Virus record (IMG/VR): IMGVR_UViG_3300021347_000031
Location: 1 to 25,465 of that record
Reading direction: 5' to 3' (one strand)
Length of the DNA stretch: 25,465 bases
From: a virus
Shown here one piece after another: positions 8,007-21,934 of the stretch; the stretch's first letter is position 1; each line of letters opens with the position of its first letter. Position numbers and translations under genes: made by a program. The notes under the pieces were generated by a model. It was not told the DNA's origin and made no database searches. It saw only the letters and a program-made list of their open reading frames with translations.

Positions 8007-11000
8007 TTATTCAAAAGAGGCAATAGTTCTTGTAACTACTGTACCTCCTACATTTATTTTTACTTTTATAGACCCATCAGCTGAATCCATATATATTGAT
8101 GATTTATTATTTGCTGGGTCACTTGGAGTTGATATTGCATTTAAAGTTAAAACATCATCTAATTCTAATACACTTTGAACTCTTTGTTTTCCATTTACAT
8201 CTAATTTATAGAAACCAGAATCAGTTGTAGTTCCAATTAGTAGGTTTCCATTAGCTTCTAATGACATCTTTGTTGTTGAATTAGTAACAAATCTTATTTT
8301 ACCACTTGTTGTTTCGTTACCTATATTAATGTTATTTGATGTATCAGAAAATCCAAAATATCCTATTCTTGAATTAGCTCTTTTAAAAGCCATAAAAACA
8401 GCATTAGAATCAGTAGAATTTAAATTAAGAATTTGGTCTGTTGCACCACTAAATGTTGCAGTTGTTCCAGTTAATGAGCCAGTTAAATTAACTGGTCCGC
8501 TTGCGTCAATTCTACCATCATTTCTAATACTAAATAACGCAGTAGAACTTGAGTTTCTTACTTCTAAAGCACTTTTTGTAGTATCACTTGTTGCCCCTAA
8601 TATTCTTAATCTTGAATTGTTATCAGTTGTTGTTCCAATAAGTACATTTTTTTCTAAATTAATAGTTGTTTGGCTACCATCTAAAGTTATATATGAAGTT
8701 ATGCCTCCACTACCATCATCTGACTGAAATATTATATCTTTATCATTACTATTATTTCGTATATATAAATCTCCAGTCCAGTTTTCAACAAAAGAATTTG
8801 TTCCAGTATGATATAAATCTAAATCACTACTAGTACCAATTAATAAATGATTGCTATCTCCTATTTTTATATCACCATTTACTTGTAACTTTTGACCACT
8901 ATCAGTTGTTGTTCCAATGAGTACGTTTCCGCCAGATGTTATTCTTGCTCTTTCATTATTACTATTATCTTTAAACAAAATGCCAGTAGTTCCAGCCGAA
9001 TGAATTTCGGTTTTGTCTGAATTATTATATAAAATTAATTTGCTTGGGGAAACAGACCTTAAATTTCCATTATAATATAATGTTCCGCCAACTGTTACAT
9101 TATATCCAAAAGTTGAACTACCATTCCCAGCTATTGTAAAAGCATTTCCAGAATTAACCTCAACATTAAAGGCTCCAGCTGCACTCATATTGCTGGTATG
9201 TGCAGACGAATCAACTTGTAATGTGTAAGTCCCATTAGATTTACTGGTTTTATTATCAGTAATATGTAAAGCTCTCCCAGATGGACTAGTTCCTGAAATT
9301 TGCATTATTGCATTAGGTGATGTAACACCTAAACCTAAATAACCATCATCAGTAATTCTAGCAAACTCAGTTGAGCTATCAAAGTTTTTAAATTTAATTG
9401 GATTGCCACTTACAGCTGGTTTGAAAGCATCAGCATGACTATCACCAGTTATTAATGCGTCACCAACAACGTGGAGCTTTTCTGTGGGAGAATCAGTATT
9501 TATACCTATGTTATTTGTGTCTTTTTCAATAAATAAACCATCATTTCCATCAGCTTTGAAATGCAAAGAGTTCCAACCAGTAAAACCAGTATCAGCACCA
9601 GAAATTTGGTAAACATCTGTTGATACAATTCCAAAAGCAACACCAGTTGATGAATCACCAAATCTTGCATTTCCATTTACTTCTAAAGGTACATTAGGAC
9701 TGGACGTTCCAATTCCTATACGTTGGTTTGTATTATCAACCCTCATAACTTCACCATTAGATGTACTACCAAATCTAATACTTCTTGTTCCATCACCATC
9801 TAAAGATAAAACCCCAGAAACATTATACAATTTTCCAATTTTAGTATCTCCAACAGCTCCCCCAACTAATATACCAGCTCCATTTGTAACAGCTATATTA
9901 CCACCAGAAACAGATAGTTTTTCAGAGCCACTTGTTGTTCCAACATATAGATTTCCACCAGATGTCAAACGCATTTTTTCTGAGCCTCTATTTTGAAATA
10001 TTATATTTCTATATGCATCACCACTGTTGGAATCACTATCAGCATTTAAAGTTAAATTAACTACTGAATTTATACTATTTGGGACTGTATCAGATAAAGT
10101 TATTGCTCCATGAACATCTAATGTACTACTTGGACTTGATGAACTTCCAATCATTATACTGTTAGTCGTTGTGTTTCCTAGATCCGTTACTTCCTGAAGT
10201 GTGTCCGCAGTTCCAACTTGAGCATCTACATAAGATTTTGAGGCTGCATCAGTTGAAGCTACTGGAGTTGCTGGGATTGTTACTTGACCACTAAATGTTG
10301 CAGTTGTTCCAGTTAATCCATAACCTAACGTAACAACACCAGTATCTCTTTGCATTGAGATTATAGTTTTTACAGTTGATGTTGCTGCACTTTGTATTTG
10401 TAAATTATTAGCACTACCATCTAAATTAATTCTAAAACCATATAAACTTGTACCCCATACTCCACCAGTTTCACCAAAATATAAGCTACCAGCATCAGTT
10501 GGATTACTTCCATTAGCATTTCTAATATTTATGTCTCCAAATACTTGTAATTTTCCTTCGTCAACATTTGATGTGTCTCCAATGAGTAGATTTCCACCAG
10601 ATGTCAAACGCATTCTTTCTGAGCCACCAGTTGAAAAATTTAAAGTTGCATCTGCTGGATAACCAATATGGGCTGTTTCACTAACACCATTTCTTCCTAA
10701 TCTAATTATATTTCCATAAGTAGCATGTCTTAAAAATTTTACTGGGGTAGCATCATAGTTACCAATTACATCTAATTTTAAAGATGGACTCGTTGTTCCA
10801 ATTCCTACCCTTTCATTTCTTGCATCTATTGTAAAAACTTCTGTATCACTACTATTTAAGAATTGAAACCTACCAACAGTTGGGTGCCCCATTCTAAATA
10901 TCATAGAAGCATCTGAGCCATTATATAGTTCTATAAAATTCATGTTGTTGTTAGATGTTTTTAAAAACCCATCATAAGGTATTACAACATTCCCACTAGT

Positions 11001-14000
11001 TTTTATATCGCCAGTAACTTGCAGTTTACTAGAGCCATCATCAGTTGTTGTTCCAATTAGTACGTTTGAATTGTTTGTTATAACTAATACATTTGAAACA
11101 TCATTTGCTCCTAAATACAAGCTACTATTAGAATCTCTATTATATATATATGATGTTGAGCCACTTTTTGTAATTAACAAACTATCAGTTGCACCAACTC
11201 CAACATCAACATCTGAAACATATATTCTTGCTTGACTACCCGATTGTCCTACAATATGCAATTCACCTTGAGGAGTAGAAGAACTACCAATCATTATGCT
11301 GTTAGTCGTTGTGTTTCCTAAATCCGTCACCTCCTGCAATGTATCCGCAGAGCCAACTTGCGTATCAACGTATGCCTTTATACTTTCACTTGTTGCTAAA
11401 CTTGTAGCACTTGCAGTTCCAAAACTATCGTCATCTATATAACTACTAATTGCAACACTACCAGAATCAATACTTGTTGCAGTAATATCAAAGCCACCAA
11501 CTGTTCCTTTTGTTTTGTTTTGGTATTGAGCTGATAAATCCTCTTGGTTAATAAGTAAATATGACCCAGCATCTATGTCAGCATATAATGGAGTTGAAGA
11601 AACACTTATTGATGTATCTGTTGACCCCTGATTTGATGTTACTGTTAAAGCTAATGGCTGGTCATCATTTGAGTTAATTAAATTAAATGTATCACCAGTT
11701 TTAAATACAGCTGTTCCTATTGCATTAATTGGAACAGAGCTTAATGATTTTTGATCTCTTAAAGTAATGTAAGTTATAGACCCAGTGAATGTTGTTCCAG
11801 CTTGAAATTTAATATCACTTGAGCCTTCGCAAGTTAAATAAATAGAATAATCACCAGATGATGTAATTGTTTCTGTTGTTCCAGTAGTTCCAGCTTTTAC
11901 TAATAAAGTCCCAGCGGTAACAACTACTTTAAAATTTATTTGATAAGTAAGCTCTTCAGTTAATACTGATTGAACTAAATCACTTGTTGAGCCAGTTGCA
12001 GTAAAATTAGCTTTTTTTGCAGTTGTATCAATACTCCAACCAGTTCCTAGTGTCCAACCAGTTGCAACATTAAAGTTTCCATTAACAGCTACATTTGAGC
12101 CAGTTGATGGAATTGTTGCACTTAAATATGCAATTGGACTGTTTTGAGCTAATGCTTGACTTACTGGATTAATTAACATTGCTGAATTGTTAGGAGCATT
12201 TAATTGATTGCCACCTAAATTTCCAATGTTATTATTTTGATTGCTTGTTGATACTACATTTCTTATTATTTGATAACCTTCATAATCCCATTCATCTAAT
12301 AAAGTATAAAATTTACCTCTTCTAAAAATATACTCTGGATCAGCAGTTTCTCTTGTTTCTCTTAATTTACCAATTGGATTGACATATCTTGGTCTTGTTG
12401 CAGTTCCCTCAGTTTGATTTTTATTTGCAACACCAACAGCTAATCTCATTGTTGGAGTAATAACTATTTTAGTTTGACCATATAAAAATTCATCAATTAA
12501 TAATTGAGTAAATGTTTTAGTTCCAGTTAATGTTCCAACACCCCACAAACCGCTTGAATTTGTGTTTACATAATCTGTTCCATCATCAACTTGTAAACTA
12601 CTTCTTGCAAACTCAATAGAATCACCCCATAACAATTGACCAAAATTAAATTGCTCTGAATTTGCCTTTGTTTCTGCACTTGTATCATTTATAGTGTTAA
12701 ATGTTTCACCATAAGAAGAGCTTTGACCATTTGTTAATGTTTGTAATAATCCAAGAAAAGGTGATGTTGTTGCAAACCTAATATCATCAATTATAGTTCC
12801 AGCATTAAAACCAGCTGGATTTGATATTGTGCTAATATTAATCTGACCAGCTGGGTCTTCCAATGAATTAGACCAACTTACAGTTCCAGAATTTAATGGT
12901 CCACTAAGAGTTGGTAAAATAATCCCAACATTGGGATTTCTCATTCTTTGTGGACTTCCATATCCACTAAAATTAAGATAAAAACAACCAGGATTACTAC
13001 CAGAATTTCCATAACCAGATGTTGTTCCAACTTTTTCTAAATCTAAAAAAAAGCTCCATGCTCCAGACATTGTAATTGCATTGCCATTTTCATCTTTAAA
13101 TGGAATTGATTGTTCAAAACCAACATGAGCTGTTACACTTAAACTTTTCGAGCTTATTGTGTATCTTGGAGACCTAGGACCTAAAGGAGTCCAGTTAGAA
13201 CTATCAATCCAATAATATGGCAAAGTTTGACTTGAACCATCATATTGTAAATAATAAGTAGTTGTTCCATCAGAGGCATAAAAATTAAATTTTATAGATG
13301 ACCACCAACCAGCTGTATGACCTAGTGAAAAATTTGGACAATCCCAAGTCCAGTCCAAAGGTATTGAAAGCCATAAAAAATCAGATGTTGATGGACTATT
13401 TATTGTGCCTTGAAAAACTTCTTGATCTAAAGGATTTGACCCAAAAGGAAATCCACCATAATAATTTTCTGATTCAAATGATAAAAATTTAGCGTTTACT
13501 TGTTTTATTATAGGCAAATAATCATAAGTAGTTCCAGTTAATTTGCTAATCTTTTCATTAGATATTTCTTGAAAGTATCTTGTCCAATATGTACTTCCTA
13601 AATGATCTTGACTCCCTAAAAAAGCTCCAGTATCACTGTAAAGCCTACTAAAATTGTTTTGTGGATTGTCTATTGTTCCACTTTCACCAGTTATATATTC
13701 TGGTATTTGTACAATCCAAAATTCATGTTTCCAATAGGTTATTCTTGCACCCCAGTGTCTTAATAATTCTTTTAAAACTGTGTAACAATTTTCAGGAAAA
13801 TAAACACCTTGGTCATCTTTTCTATGGAACATTGACACTTGACATTTTGTTTTTTCTAATGGGTCTTCACTTTGTCCAGTATTATCCATGTCACCATTAT
13901 ACCAATTAATGCAAGTTGTGAATCCATAATCTTGGGTAACTCCTTGCCCATTAGCACCACTCAATGATGCACCAGTTTTTTTCAATATTTCTCTAAACCA

Positions 14001-14534
14001 AAAAATGTAAGTTGCTGGTCCATAATACATGTTTTCTGTAGCATAATTTCCTTGAACTCTTTCATTAAATGGGGGAGTTCCACCAGTTACATCTAAATCA
14101 ACAAAATCAATATCTTTTAACAATGATAGACCATCAACAAATTTTAATTCTTGAACATAAGGAAATGCTTGATCTAAACCTTTTCCAATATCCATAACAC
14201 AAAAACCAGACCACAATGGTGCAACTGATTGATATGTTGATGATGTTGCTCTATAAATATGAATATAAATTTCCCTTTCTTGATATAATGTTCTTAAATT
14301 ATTAATAAATAATCTTTCATCATTATCTTGAACTAAAAAAGGTATTTTACATGATGAACTTAAAATAGGAGAAAACCTATCTTCTTGATCTGTTTCATAT
14401 TCTATTACTGGTCCTCCCTCTGCCATTGTCATTTCAACTTCAGGTTTTACCCAGCCATTCACCCAGATTTCTAAATAGTAATCTAAGTCGTTATTACTCT
14501 TATATGATGAATAATATTTTTTTCCAAATGCCAT
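8007..14534 (-). CDS. giant baseplate-hub/tail-fibre fusion (2175 aa)
   Basis: One uninterrupted ORF takes about a quarter of the window. Residues 1 to about 300 (YLEIWVNGWVKPEVEMTMAE, then CKIPFLVQDNDERLFINNLR, WSGFCVMDIG) look like the tail-tip proteins of Bacteroidetes siphophages. Residues about 300-780 are a long beta-rich part ending in FRRGKFYTLLDEWDYEGYQI. About 815-925 resembles a carbohydrate-binding jelly-roll (NGNFNVATGWTLGTGWSIDT). From about 1050 to 2130 come at least twelve related fibre repeats of the type NVLIGTTTDSGQKLQVNGDI and IGIGTSSP. The end (SADGSIKVKINVGGTVVTRT) lacks the usual self-cleaving chaperone domain. Since no separate Dit, Tal or fibre gene is seen, this protein probably combines tail tip and receptor-binding fibre. 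Confidence 0.85.
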   Translation of the reverse strand: MAFGKKYYSSYKSNNDLDYYLEIWVNGWVKPEVEMTMAEGGPVIEYETDQEDRFSPILSSSCKIPFLVQDNDERLFINNLRTLYQEREIYIHIYRATSSTYQSVAPLWSGFCVMDIGKGLDQAFPYVQELKFVDGLSLLKDIDFVDLDVTGGTPPFNERVQGNYATENMYYGPATYIFWFREILKKTGASLSGANGQGVTQDYGFTTCINWYNGDMDNTGQSEDPLEKTKCQVSMFHRKDDQGVYFPENCYTVLKELLRHWGARITYWKHEFWIVQIPEYITGESGTIDNPQNNFSRLYSDTGAFLGSQDHLGSTYWTRYFQEISNEKISKLTGTTYDYLPIIKQVNAKFLSFESENYYGGFPFGSNPLDQEVFQGTINSPSTSDFLWLSIPLDWTWDCPNFSLGHTAGWWSSIKFNFYASDGTTTYYLQYDGSSQTLPYYWIDSSNWTPLGPRSPRYTISSKSLSVTAHVGFEQSIPFKDENGNAITMSGAWSFFLDLEKVGTTSGYGNSGSNPGCFYLNFSGYGSPQRMRNPNVGIILPTLSGPLNSGTVSWSNSLEDPAGQINISTISNPAGFNAGTIIDDIRFATTSPFLGLLQTLTNGQSSSYGETFNTINDTSAETKANSEQFNFGQLLWGDSIEFARSSLQVDDGTDYVNTNSSGLWGVGTLTGTKTFTQLLIDEFLYGQTKIVITPTMRLAVGVANKNQTEGTATRPRYVNPIGKLRETRETADPEYIFRRGKFYTLLDEWDYEGYQIIRNVVSTSNQNNNIGNLGGNQLNAPNNSAMLINPVSQALAQNSPIAYLSATIPSTGSNVAVNGNFNVATGWTLGTGWSIDTTAKKANFTATGSTSDLVQSVLTEELTYQINFKVVVTAGTLLVKAGTTGTTETITSSGDYSIYLTCEGSSDIKFQAGTTFTGSITYITLRDQKSLSSVPINAIGTAVFKTGDTFNLINSNDDQPLALTVTSNQGSTDTSISVSSTPLYADIDAGSYLLINQEDLSAQYQNKTKGTVGGFDITATSIDSGSVAISSYIDDDSFGTASATSLATSESIKAYVDTQVGSADTLQEVTDLGNTTTNSIMIGSSSTPQGELHIVGQSGSQARIYVSDVDVGVGATDSLLITKSGSTSYIYNRDSNSSLYLGANDVSNVLVITNNSNVLIGTTTDDGSSKLQVTGDIKTSGNVVIPYDGFLKTSNNNMNFIELYNGSDASMIFRMGHPTVGRFQFLNSSDTEVFTIDARNERVGIGTTSPSLKLDVIGNYDATPVKFLRHATYGNIIRLGRNGVSETAHIGYPADATLNFSTGGSERMRLTSGGNLLIGDTSNVDEGKLQVFGDINIRNANGSNPTDAGSLYFGETGGVWGTSLYGFRINLDGSANNLQIQSAATSTVKTIISMQRDTGVVTLGYGLTGTTATFSGQVTIPATPVASTDAASKSYVDAQVGTADTLQEVTDLGNTTTNSIMIGSSSSPSSTLDVHGAITLSDTVPNSINSVVNLTLNADSDSNSGDAYRNIIFQNRGSEKMRLTSGGNLYVGTTSGSEKLSVSGGNIAVTNGAGILVGGAVGDTKIGKLYNVSGVLSLDGDGTRSIRFGSTSNGEVMRVDNTNQRIGIGTSSPNVPLEVNGNARFGDSSTGVAFGIVSTDVYQISGADTGFTGWNSLHFKADGNDGLFIEKDTNNIGINTDSPTEKLHVVGDALITGDSHADAFKPAVSGNPIKFKNFDSSTEFARITDDGYLGLGVTSPNAIMQISGTSPSGRALHITDNKTSKSNGTYTLQVDSSAHTSNMSAAGAFNVEVNSGNAFTIAGNGSSTFGYNVTVGGTLYYNGNLRSVSPSKLILYNNSDKTEIHSAGTTGILFKDNSNNERARITSGGNVLIGTTTDSGQKLQVNGDIKIGDSNHLLIGTSSDLDLYHTGTNSFVENWTGDLYIRNNSNDKDIIFQSDDGSGGITSYITLDGSQTTINLEKNVLIGTTTDNNSRLRILGATSDTTKSALEVRNSSSTALFSIRNDGRIDASGPVNLTGSLTGTTATFSGATDQILNLNSTDSNAVFMAFKRANSRIGYFGFSDTSNNINIGNETTSGKIRFVTNSTTKMSLEANGNLLIGTTTDSGFYKLDVNGKQRVQSVLELDDVLTLNAISTPSDPANNKSSIYMDSADGSIKVKINVGGTVVTRTIASFE
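8200..11310 (-). repeat. array of degenerate fibre repeats within the 2175-aa gene
   Basis: The encoded protein repeats a short beta motif at irregular spacing of roughly 60-150 residues: SIMIGSSSTP, NVLIGTTTDDG, RVGIGTTSPS, NLLIGDTSNV, SIMIGSSSSP, NLYVGTTSGS, RIGIGTSSPN, NIGINTDSPT, LGLGVTSPNA, then three more IGTTTD copies, each followed by a KLxVxGDI-like strand. A second motif, RMRLTSGGN or ARITSGGN, often precedes them. At the DNA level the plus-strand word gttgttccaat recurs (about 8634, 8910 and 11047). This is typical of trimeric fibre shafts, where repeats set length. Confidence 0.8.
10141..10233 (-). repeat. direct repeat copy 1 within the fibre gene
   Basis: The first 80 nt match the segment at 11281-11360 at 70 positions by my count, in the same frame and orientation, 1140 nt (380 codons) apart. 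It encodes ADTLQEVTDLGNTTTNSIMI and the preceding AQVG. Confidence 0.85.
11281..11373 (-). repeat. direct repeat copy 2 within the fibre gene
   Basis: Partner of the repeat at 10141-10233. Both encode ADTLQEVTDLGNTTTNSIMI followed by GSSS, and both stand after a YVDxQVG linker. Recombination between them would remove exactly 380 codons in frame. Confidence 0.85.
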
Positions 14535-14537
14535 AAA

Positions 14538-16259
14538 TTAAACTGTTCTTAACCTACCTAATCCACCTCTTTGATTACTAATAAAAATGTCATTTCCACT
14601 TATACGCCCAAACACCTCAATTTGTTGTGAGCCACTTCCTCCATTTATCATTCCTTTTAATTTATCAAGCGGTGCAACAACTTCTGGATTACTTGCATTT
14701 GTTCCAGCTCCTTCACCTACTAAAGCCATAGTTGGACCAGTAACTAATCCACCATTTGCTAATCCTAATAAACTCCCTTTAGCCATACTAAATGCCTTTG
14801 CTATTGTCATTGTGCTACCTCCTAGCAATATGTTAATTGCAGTCATAACAGCTAATTGAATCATTAATTGCTTTACAGCTTTTATAATATTTTGAATTAG
14901 TGAACTAAAAAAACCTTCTTGACTGTTTGCAGCACTCATCATTGATTCAAACATAATATCACCAAATAATTCAGTTGCAGCATTATATTCTTTTTGAGCT
15001 TGTGTTAATTTATGTAAAGGAGCTTCAACATTTTTTAATTTATCTGGAACTTTTCCTAATTCAACATTTAGCTTTTGTACTGGCAATGAATCCATTGCAG
15101 CCATCATTGTTCCTTTTGGTTTTGTTTTAGAATCTTTTGATTTGACACCGCTAGGATCAAAAATTAATTTATTTTTTCCATTGCCTAATTGATCTGTTAT
15201 ATTTTTTAATTCTTTAACACTACTTGTTAAATTATCTACATTTGTTTTAGATTGTTTAAACCCTCCAAATCTTGTTATAACAAACTTTGCTGCGGCAGCA
15301 ATACCACCTAAAACAGCCGCAACAGTTGTTGCAGTTAAAGATGTAAATAATGCAATAATTGACGATATTGCACCAGCTAAAACACCTAATATTGTGACTA
15401 ATGGTCCTATAACAGCAACAAGCTTACTAAAAAATATAATAGCTTCTTTTTGATTTTCAGTTAATCCTCTCAAAGCATCAACAATTCCTTTTAATGATTT
15501 AATTAAATCTTTTGCTAATGGTATTAATAATGTGCCAAATTGTTGTCCTAATTCTTTAATACTTTCTTGCAAACTTCTTGTACTATTAGCAACCCCATCA
15601 CTTGTATTAATATAATCACCCAAAGCATTAGAGGATTGAGCCATAACAAAATTATACCTAAGCTGAACTTTTTCAGCTTGTGTCATTTCTTTAATTGTTT
15701 TTGCAATACCTTGTTCTAAAGCAAATTGTTTTAAATTTGCTTCAGTCATTACAACTCCTAGTTTTTTTAGAGATTCTGTTTCACCAGTGAAAATACTAGC
15801 TAAAGCTGTTTGGGCAACATCAATTCTTATGTTTTTAAATGATGCTAAATCACCAGCTAAACCAACTAATGATGTACTCATTCCAGCGGCTTGTTTTTGA
15901 GTTAAGCCCATTGACGTTCCCATGTCACCAAACAATGCAGCCATTTCAAGAGCTGATCCTTCGGCAATACCAAAACTATCTAATGTTGTTTTTGCAAAAT
16001 CTTGAACTTCTTTTGACGATTCACCAAAGCTGACATTTACTTTATTCAATGATTCCTCAAAATCAGATGCTAGTTTTACAGCTCCAGCTCCAACCGCTAA
16101 TATTGGCAATGTAAGATTTGTGCTAAGCTGAGTTCCTAATCTTTTAGCATTTCTTTCAAATCTATTTAGTTTTGTTGTAGCATTTTTAACAGCTTTATCA
16201 AAGCCCTTAAAATCAGCTCCAAACATTACAGTTAATTTACCTACTAATCCTAATGCCAT
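14538..16259 (-). CDS. tape measure protein
   Basis: This 573-aa protein has the typical tape measure build: an N-terminal start MALGLVGKLTVMFGADFKGF, a KNATTKLNRFERNAKRLGTQ helix, the conserved SDFEESLNKVNVSFGESSKE block, and a helical region to about residue 265. Hydrophobic helices follow at about 275-330 (IIFFSKLVAVIGPLVTILGV onward), then a Lys-rich middle and a hydrophobic C-terminal part (about 455-515) before GGLVTGPTMALVGEGAG, a motif near the end of many tape measures. At about 0.15 nm per residue the tail would be roughly 85 nm. It follows the frameshifted chaperone by 3 nt and precedes the tip/fibre gene by 3 nt, the normal order. Confidence 0.9.
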   Translation of the reverse strand: MALGLVGKLTVMFGADFKGFDKAVKNATTKLNRFERNAKRLGTQLSTNLTLPILAVGAGAVKLASDFEESLNKVNVSFGESSKEVQDFAKTTLDSFGIAEGSALEMAALFGDMGTSMGLTQKQAAGMSTSLVGLAGDLASFKNIRIDVAQTALASIFTGETESLKKLGVVMTEANLKQFALEQGIAKTIKEMTQAEKVQLRYNFVMAQSSNALGDYINTSDGVANSTRSLQESIKELGQQFGTLLIPLAKDLIKSLKGIVDALRGLTENQKEAIIFFSKLVAVIGPLVTILGVLAGAISSIIALFTSLTATTVAAVLGGIAAAAKFVITRFGGFKQSKTNVDNLTSSVKELKNITDQLGNGKNKLIFDPSGVKSKDSKTKPKGTMMAAMDSLPVQKLNVELGKVPDKLKNVEAPLHKLTQAQKEYNAATELFGDIMFESMMSAANSQEGFFSSLIQNIIKAVKQLMIQLAVMTAINILLGGSTMTIAKAFSMAKGSLLGLANGGLVTGPTMALVGEGAGTNASNPEVVAPLDKLKGMINGGSGSQQIEVFGRISGNDIFISNQRGGLGRLRTV

Positions 16260-16262
16260 TTT

Positions 16263-16613
16263 TTATTTACTTTTATATTCAGATAATTTTTTAATATACT
16301 CAGCTTTTTCTTTCAACTTTTTATAATCTAATTCTTTTTGTTTCTTATCCCATTCAAATTCTAACAAATCAGTTGGCTTTAACTTTTTACCTTTTGCTAT
16401 TTGTATATTCAATAACAATGTTGTTTGCCATCTTGTTCTTTCCCACCTACCTCTTTCTCTTATGTTTTCAAGCTCATAAAAGCCATCTAACTTAGTCCAA
16501 AAATGTTTAGGTAAGTAGTCATAAAATTCATCAACTCCCATTCCTAAATATCCAAAAGCAATCTTTTCAAGTTTACGCCAAGAAAGTTTTTCTTTTACTT
16601 CTTGGCTTTTTGC
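16263..16613 (-). CDS. tail assembly chaperone C-terminal part (made by -1 frameshift)
   Basis: This reading frame has an ATG only at 16541, but it stays open upstream to the slip site in the gene before. The part before that ATG already reads as protein of the family: EKLSWRKLEKIAFGYLGMGV, then DEFYDYLPKHFWTKLDGFY and RERGRWERTRWQTTLLLNIQ. The W-x3-xxAFGxLGxxxxEFxxLxPxxF pattern is that of the T part of gpG-gpT-type chaperones. Slipping -1 at 16613-16619 joins 103 residues of the first protein to 116 of this one, giving about 219 aa. The longer form would load on the tape measure, whose gene follows 3 nt later. Initiation at 16541 alone would cut the conserved motif in two. Confidence 0.85.
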   Translation of the reverse strand, partial: AKSQEVKEKLSWRKLEKIAFGYLGMGVDEFYDYLPKHFWTKLDGFYELENIRERGRWERTRWQTTLLLNIQIAKGKKLKPTDLLEFEWDKKQKELDYKKLKEKAEYIKKLSEYKSK

Positions 16614-16921
16614 TTTTTTTCAGTATTGCCTCCCATTTGTTCTGCAAGTATTTCCATAGCTTTTCCAATAGAATCATAATCATTATCAATTAAATCAGCC
16701 AAATCATCAATACTTATTTCACATTCTTGCTTTGCAGCTCTATAACCATCTTCAACACCACAATAGATTAAAGTCAATGCATCATCTAAAGTCATATCTG
16801 TTCCAAGTTTATCTAAATCTTGCAATGTTGTGTTTGTCTTTGTGCTATATTTTCTCAAAGCATTAAATCCAAATTTGATAGGATATTTTTTCTTATCTAT
16901 TTCTATAAAAGTATAATTCAT
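16595..16921 (-). CDS. tail assembly chaperone, short (zero-frame) form
   Basis: This 108-aa protein stands between the major tail protein and the tape measure, the place of gpG-type tail assembly chaperones. It starts NYTFIEIDKKKYPIKFGFNA and continues with ALRKYSTKTNTTLQDLDKLG and LTLIYCGVEDGYRAAKQECE, a pattern of GTA/TAC chaperones (short beta start, then a helix with a YCGxEDG motif). The end is lysine-rich (TEKKQKAKK) because it contains the slippery run. Most ribosomes would stop at 16595; a minority would shift to make the long form. It should bind the tape measure and recruit tail tube subunits; it is not part of the virion in relatives. Confidence 0.85.
   Translation of the reverse strand: MNYTFIEIDKKKYPIKFGFNALRKYSTKTNTTLQDLDKLGTDMTLDDALTLIYCGVEDGYRAAKQECEISIDDLADLIDNDYDSIGKAMEILAEQMGGNTEKKQKAKK
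16613..16619 (-). promoter_or_regulatory. -1 ribosomal frameshift site A AAA AAG
   Basis: In the zero frame the codons are GAA AAA AAG CAA, so the heptamer A AAA AAG sits in the exact phase needed for -1 slippage (same heptamer as E. coli dnaX). Slipping here continues into the open frame down to 16263. The zero-frame stop is only 5 codons downstream of the heptamer. I did not identify a clear stimulatory hairpin downstream. Confidence 0.85.
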
Positions 16922-16997: not shown

Positions 16998-17429
16998 TTA
17001 TTGTACTGTTTGTGTTAAAGCACCAGTCCCCTCAATAGTCATTGAATACGTTGCAGTGTCCTCAGTTCCACCAGTAAAACTCATTGATGTAATATAACCA
17101 CTTCCAGCATAACTTACATCAGATGTTGCATTTGTATCACCAAAGATAAAATCAACTTTTAATCTGTTTGCTAAAAGATTTGTTTGTAATAAGTCATCAG
17201 CTCCATTTGTTAAAGCTACACTACTTGAGTCAGTCCAAGCGTAAGCACCATCAATATCAAGTGAAAAATCTCTAACTCCTTCTAATATTTCTTTGTTACC
17301 AGCTGATTCTTTGTTTGTTATTTCTCTTGGTGAATGATTAACATTCAGCGTACAGTTTTGAGCAAAGGCAACAAGATTAGTTGTTCCAGTGCTGTAAACT
17401 TTTAATTCAGTTCCATTTAAAATAGGCAT
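16998..17429 (-). CDS. major tail (tube) protein
   Basis: This 143-aa beta-rich protein has the build of TP901-1-type major tail proteins: start PILNGTELKVYSTGTTNLVA, then NCTLNVNHSPREITNKESAG, a DFSLDIDGAYAW strand and a C-terminal half ending SGYITSMSFTGGTEDTATYS. The tube subunit forms stacked hexamers around the tape measure. Length is typical of small members without an added Ig domain. It lies between the neck proteins and the chaperone, the standard place, and is followed by a hairpin that may set its expression above that of downstream genes. Confidence 0.87.
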   Translation of the reverse strand: MPILNGTELKVYSTGTTNLVAFAQNCTLNVNHSPREITNKESAGNKEILEGVRDFSLDIDGAYAWTDSSSVALTNGADDLLQTNLLANRLKVDFIFGDTNATSDVSYAGSGYITSMSFTGGTEDTATYSMTIEGTGALTQTVQ

Positions 17430-20836: not shown

Positions 20837-21934
20837 TTATTTTCTCTTTTTTAATTCAATATTTAATGAGATAAGAGAATTTCTCACTAAATTGTTTTCT
20901 TTTTCTTCAATAATTTCTTCTTTAGTTTCCTCAACTAAACTTTCTTGATATTCTTTTAATCCTCTTTTAGCAACAACTAAATCACTTTCTGCCATATTAT
21001 ATGCTGGATAAGTCACAGCAGAAATATCATAAAGCCTATCAATCTTTTTTATTGTTCTAATGTTGTTCCCTTCGTCATCAGTTGACCAATCATCTTCAGC
21101 CACAGTGAATGCAAATGAGCTTTGTGTAATATCACCACGCTTCATTGAAATAGATAAATCTTTTCCATAAGATGTTTCTGGCATTTCAAATTCATATTTT
21201 AATCCTCTTTCATCAGCTGTTAGATTTAAAGTTCCAGATGTATTTCTTGCAAGAATTAAATTTGGATCATGATTTATTAAAGCTCTAACATCAGAGTTTG
21301 CAATTAGTTCTTCAGTAAATGCTCCTCTTTCTATAAACTCATAAAAGCCACCAAGATTGTTTGACCTTGAATCATAAACACTAGCATGACCAACAACTAA
21401 ATCTCTACCATCTTCAGTTGAATCAACTCTTGTTTCTATATTAAATATTCTTTTTTCCATTTGATTATAATTTTTTAAATTTCTTTCATCTTTTTCTTCC
21501 TCTGCAATTATTTCATTTCTTTTTCTTTCACTCCATTTAACAGCCGCATCACCACCCCACAAAGCCCATGCAATTCTACCAGCACTTGGAAAGCCATCTT
21601 CATCTGGACTAAAACCTTCACCTTGTTTATCAACTTCATGCCTTTTTAAATAGCTATACATTCTTGTTACTCTATCGGCTGTTAAAGTATTACTGATAAT
21701 CATATTGGCTGTTTTTAATCCAACCTCAGTTCCACCTCTACCAAATTCTTCACGCCATTCTTTTCCTTTTTTAGCTTCATCAATCATGCCTTGCGTTGGA
21801 GTAAAGTCAATATCACTTATTGCTCTGTAATCACTATTTGCGTCATCAGATTCTTTTTTAGAATCATAAATGCAAGAGCCATTTTCACCCCATTTCCATT
21901 TGCCATTGTCGCATTGAATGCTAGGCATCTTCAC
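20837..21934 (-). CDS. prohead protease (U35) with extra N-terminal domain
   Basis: This 365-aa ORF has two parts. Residues about 160-325 are an HK97-type prohead protease: KRIFNIETRVDSTEDGRDLV, VVGHASVYDS, FIERGAFTEEL, catalytic His222 in INHDPNLILAR, Ser272/273 in ITQSSFAF, and DISAVTYPAY. Residues 1-140 form another domain: CDNGKWKWGENGSCIYDS, FTPTQGMIDEAKKG, TANMIISNTLTADRVTRMYS and SAGRIAWALWGGDAAVKWSE. The latter type is known to me from phage proteins near portal and protease genes, role unknown. Met159 (ATG at 21460) could start a protease-only product. A charged, Glu-rich tail follows. It overlaps the portal end by 14 nt. Confidence 0.88.
   Translation of the reverse strand: MKMPSIQCDNGKWKWGENGSCIYDSKKESDDANSDYRAISDIDFTPTQGMIDEAKKGKEWREEFGRGGTEVGLKTANMIISNTLTADRVTRMYSYLKRHEVDKQGEGFSPDEDGFPSAGRIAWALWGGDAAVKWSERKRNEIIAEEEKDERNLKNYNQMEKRIFNIETRVDSTEDGRDLVVGHASVYDSRSNNLGGFYEFIERGAFTEELIANSDVRALINHDPNLILARNTSGTLNLTADERGLKYEFEMPETSYGKDLSISMKRGDITQSSFAFTVAEDDWSTDDEGNNIRTIKKIDRLYDISAVTYPAYNMAESDLVVAKRGLKEYQESLVEETKEEIIEEKENNLVRNSLISLNIELKKRK

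Follow-up and report, generated by a model that had tools for sequence, protein, structure and literature searches.

We report here a pair of tail assembly chaperone genes of the lambda G/GT type that, judging from comparative sequence evidence, is very probably expressed by -1 programmed ribosomal frameshifting. The window, by which we mean the whole stretch of DNA analysed, is a complete virus record of 25,465 bases which is AT-rich (31% GC). It contains both reading frames, a slippery heptamer in phase and a hairpin at the right distance downstream, and all of these elements are conserved among relatives (Table 1).

Table 1. Features of the chaperone locus and its neighbouring genes in the window.
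Feature	Position	Strand	Basis
Major tail (tube) protein gene, upstream	16998..17429	-	phrog_1407 (E 1.1e-23); Pfam Phage_tail_2 (E 1.4e-9)
0-frame ORF, G-like tail assembly chaperone, 108 aa	16595..16921	-	phrog_2115; fold matches; Phage_TAC_12 below cut-off
-1 frame, T-like domain, heptamer to stop, start codon not conserved	16263..16619	-	phrog_16333; conservation
Slippery heptamer A_AAA_AAG, in slip phase	16613..16619	-	sequence and relatives
6-nt spacer between heptamer and hairpin	16607..16612	-	5-6 nt in 63/63 distinct junctions
Putative stimulatory hairpin	16577..16606	-	folding z -3.6; covariation; synonymous constraint on Ser codon of 3' arm
0-frame stop codon TAA	16595..16597	-	sequence
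ATG favoured by start-codon-based annotation; judged not to be the start of the second frame	16539..16541	-	relatives; conservation before the ATG
Tape measure protein gene, directly downstream	14538..16259	-	phrog_1535 (E 1.9e-41)

An earlier note on this DNA had proposed the frameshift and placed A_AAA_AAG in slip phase at 16619-16613. The codons at this site read ACT GAA AAA AAG CAA, which agrees with the proposal, and the heptamer lies 15 nt 5' of the stop codon of the 108-aa ORF, while the -1 frame is open from it up to a stop codon ending at 16263. The sizes given for the products also hold (108 aa for the 0 frame and 219 aa for the fusion, which the note had put at about 219), as does its warning that the sole ATG of the -1 frame, at 16541, would lead to the annotation of a 92-aa protein. 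Immediately 5' of the A-run, a TGA at 16622-16620 closes the -1 frame, which is open from 16619; slips 5' of the run would therefore be unable to enter it. The overlapping frame pair is situated between the genes for the major tail protein and the tape measure protein, as in G/GT-type systems, and the order tube protein, chaperone pair, tape measure is the usual one in long-tailed phages. On the 3' side of the tape measure gene, a single ORF of 2175 aa (8007-14534, minus strand) has many repeated motifs in its C-terminal half (LIGTTTD and TGTTATFSG, for instance); its product is probably a tail protein or binds the receptor.

The assignment to tail assembly chaperones that the earlier note had made is supported by gene order, by a PHROG match and by the similarity of the fold to predicted models. 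The first domain matches phrog_2115 (tail protein, E 8.6e-7), and its predicted structure (pLDDT 77) matches predicted viral models, several of which carry the name tail assembly chaperone (for example A0A8S5M2L5, E 8.7e-6, TM 0.76), so that homology or a shared fold with this class is indicated by both routes. The second domain matches phrog_16333, a PHROG of unknown function, with an E value of 1.3e-27, and this match starts 7 residues before the ATG; confidence in its structural model is low (pLDDT 64), and this model gave weak fold matches only. In the profile searches, which the earlier note had suggested, phrog_2115 was found, and the Pfam chaperone families stayed below cut-off for both domains, with Phage_TAC_12 at E 0.059 for the first (best member 0.0015) and Phage_tail_T matching the second on 42 residues. 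Searches of the PDB by sequence and by fold returned nothing usable, the first-domain fold being without a match to solved structures, and NCBIfam returned nothing relevant.

The window is AT-rich, and its coding sequence of about 24 kb holds five in-phase copies of A_AAA_AAG, so that the heptamer is in itself weak evidence. A -1 frame that is open for at least 116 codons is found at 0.35% of the codon positions in the window, and a -1 frame of great length also opens after one other in-phase heptamer, at 20846-20852 (minus strand), where it leads from the end of the protease ORF into the capsid gene. We used this site as a control for the combination of heptamer and open frame. In relatives, its bases are mostly kept and encode a Lys-rich tail, but the capsid gene may lie in the -1, +1 or 0 frame, and this frame is often closed 5' of the capsid ATG. 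Since relatives differ in the frame relation and several of them have a closed -1 frame, a protease-to-capsid frameshift at 20852 was rejected as fortuitous. The loss of the frame relation at the control site means that a heptamer with an open frame is insufficient, and that it is conservation which decides.

Relatives were collected from four scans of viral contigs and one genome scan, to which Cellulophaga phage phi39:1 was added from phage records, and both domains could be located in 99 distinct loci. A scan of 395 Bacteroidota genomes with phrog_16333 gave two matches, one of them already known. In 98 of the 99 loci the second frame stands at -1 to the first, the exception being phi39:1, and all 98 carry an in-phase slippery heptamer, AAAAAAG in 96 and GGGAAAG in two (L170 and L185). 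This is the comparison with related phages that the earlier note had recommended, and it also bears on the outcome named there as contrary to its reading, namely relatives that keep both frames and lose the heptamer, for which phi39:1 is the single candidate. The codon before the heptamer varies (GAA, GGA or TCA) and leaves the heptamer unharmed. That one slippery heptamer has been exchanged for another at the same site would be accounted for by a function in frameshifting and is otherwise hard to explain.

Selection on synonymous positions points to the same place. Synonymous identity was examined over 94 fusions, and its excess is greatest in windows whose centres fall on codons 103-108 of 219; dual coding accounts for part of this peak, but not for the heptamer codons 101-103 nor for Ser codon 114, which belongs to the 3' arm of the hairpin and lies past the 0-frame stop. 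At this Ser codon, 96% of codons are identical against 35% expected, and the neighbouring Leu 113 is at expectation. When codons after the stop were randomised synonymously, an equally good stem was kept in 0.2% of trials for the window-type L002, a test that is powerless for relatives in which the stop adjoins the 3' arm.

The hairpin, which the earlier note had missed, begins 6 nt 3' of the heptamer. In the window, GCCAAGAA (16606-16599) pairs with TTCTTGGC (16584-16577) and the 0-frame TAA lies in the loop; the predicted stability is -11.1 kcal/mol, which was equalled in 2 of 200 shuffles. In all 63 distinct junctions, 5 or 6 nt separate the heptamer from a stem of 5-9 pairs, with cores that include GCCAAG/CTTGGC, CCCAAG/CTTGGG, CCCAGG/CCTGGG and CCCAGC/GCTGGG, and a different stem, CCCCG/CGGGG, in L185. 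In an alignment of 49 distinct rows, 99.0% of stem cells are paired compared with 90.6% in shuffles, and pairing falls to 56% or less once the partners are shifted by one to three columns. L170 is misaligned by one column in this alignment and was scored mostly unpaired. Of these rows, 31 have G-C as the outer pair and 18 have C-G. This swap is largely common to one group of relatives, and the independent compensations are hence few, about three (the group swap, L133 and L170). The stem thus lies within the 5-9 nt spacing of a -1 signal and shows compensatory changes; an Rfam search gave no match.

Could the second frame instead be a separate 92-aa gene that starts at the ATG at 16541, by reinitiation or independently, with a fortuitous heptamer? 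This ATG is found 53 nt 3' of the 0-frame stop, and in 60 of 98 relatives an ATG at the same codon position is the first start codon; in the others, the first start has another position, is a TTG or is absent. Conservation, however, extends upstream of it, as the earlier note had suspected from a motif before the ATG: W12, E16, A19 and G21 of the -1 frame are invariant in 16 divergent sequences. Over the 12 codons that follow the conserved Trp in the direction of the ATG, single-base differences between pairs of sequences are 7012 synonymous and 2319 nonsynonymous in the -1 frame, against 1298 and 9518, and 801 and 10086, in the other two frames (these are pair counts and not independent events). 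A well-placed, conserved ATG with no homology before it, the second outcome that the note had regarded as damaging, is thus not what is seen. A separate gene would in addition leave the conserved heptamer, the hairpin and the -1 relation unexplained, and we regard it as very unlikely.

The A-run itself invites two further explanations. The fusion might arise from transcriptional rather than ribosomal slippage, as the run in the window is seven A long and distant gut relatives have runs of A9-A10 without a strong hairpin. Relatives of the same lineage, on the other hand, have six-A runs (GGAAAAAAG) and GGGGGAAAG or GAGGGAAAG, and these relatives also carry a hairpin at the spacing of ribosomal frameshifting; polymerase slippage is very unlikely here. 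The junction is also a homopolymer, where a mistake in sequencing or assembly could make a single-frame gene look shifted, but the same relation recurs in 98 of 99 distinct loci on many independent contigs, some of them without a long homopolymer; contradicted for this lineage by these independent loci, an error is barely conceivable. We therefore favour -1 ribosomal frameshifting, with some points counting against it: phi39:1 carries both domains in a +1/-2 relation, the Pfam matches are below cut-off and the second-domain model is of low confidence, and the independent covariation changes are few.

From these features, we infer that slippage occurs, at what kind of rate, and what role each protein has. 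Most ribosomes would complete the G-like protein of 108 aa, terminating at 16595, and a minority, stalled by the hairpin, would slip back by one base while both tRNAs are on A_AAA_AAG, and go on to make the 219-aa GT-like fusion. In lambda, G coats the tape measure protein and T recruits the tube protein (PMC5009743), and by analogy the G part may coat the product of the next gene here and the T part may recruit that of the preceding gene. For annotation, the correction is that a second domain taken to start at the ATG would, in the window, lack the 24 residues that precede this codon.

The host of this marine phage is probably a Bacteroidota bacterium, since the nearest cellular match, at 58% identity, is a contig (L133) from a metagenome-assembled genome of the Flavobacteriales and the isolate relatives infect Cellulophaga and Bacteroides. 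In the E. coli dnaX signal, A_AAA_AAG is followed after about 6 nt by a hairpin and preceded, at a distance of about 10 nt, by a G-rich stretch. The window shares the heptamer, the hairpin and its spacing, and a G-rich stretch, GGGAGG at 16634-16629 (minus strand), 9 nt 5' of the heptamer. It differs from dnaX in that the G-rich stretch is not kept in all relatives, and in that Shine-Dalgarno sequences go unrecognised by the ribosomes of Bacteroidota (PMC9976891). We rejected GGGAGG as a Shine-Dalgarno-like stimulator: its two Gly codons vary (GGA, GGG, GGT or GGC) and L170 and L185 do not have the motif. At the first of these Gly codons, GGG is used far more often than at Gly codons elsewhere (27 of 80 compared with 44 of 623), a side remark only because the sequences are related. 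A Shine-Dalgarno-like 4-mer precedes just 3 of 33 gene starts in the window, as expected for Bacteroidota, in which such sequences are absent (PMC6847099). The recoding signal is thus well supported and comes from phages of a phylum with ribosomes blind to Shine-Dalgarno sequences, and heptamer and hairpin can therefore be tested as a stand-alone signal. No earlier report of such a frameshift in Bacteroidota phages was found in the literature searched, which took in few subscription papers.

Similar gene pairs exist in cultured phages, where they are annotated as separate hypothetical proteins. Gp19 and gp20 of phi39:1 (KC821626, around 10700; L082 2940-2970) are the same chaperone pair, and like gp5/gp4 of Bacteroides phage Bacuni_F1 they are split at an A-run and have a homologous second-frame domain immediately ahead of the tape measure gene. 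The run is A8 with a +1/-2 relation in phi39:1 and A9 with a -1 relation in Bacuni_F1, and both differ from the window in having no strong hairpin; a search for one in Bacuni_F1 and MT835789 found none. One extra A would restore the -1 relation in phi39:1, and a homopolymer error is thus possible, as is real +1/-2 or transcriptional slippage; -2 or +1 shifts are also used at tail assembly chaperone genes of tailed phages (PMC5009743). Runs of A9-A10 in the -1 relation are found in Bacuni_F1, MT835789, MT837149 and the genome locus L188; the gut and genome relatives on such runs comprise L083, L084, L188 and L269. L083 and L084 have no strong conserved hairpin, and polymerase slippage is therefore possible there. 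It is conceivable, if rather improbable, that one gene family sets its G/GT ratio in two ways in Bacteroidota tail phages without Shine-Dalgarno help, marine flavobacterial types by ribosomal slippage on a heptamer with a covarying hairpin, and gut Bacteroides types and phi39:1 by A8-A10 runs without a hairpin, possibly through polymerase slippage.

The closest parallel is phage lambda, whose heptamer is GGGAAAG. The locus described here appears to be a new instance of this known kind, with a conserved hairpin: it likely works like lambda G/GT, and common descent of the first domain with the lambda system is also likely. As with gpG/gpGT, two overlapping frames lie between the tube protein and tape measure genes, -1 slippage is predicted near the end of the first frame, and L170 and L185 even carry the lambda heptamer. 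The locus differs from lambda in that its sequence matches none of the lambda families significantly (E 0.096 for Phage_tail_T) and in that it combines A_AAA_AAG with a strong, conserved hairpin 5-6 nt downstream.
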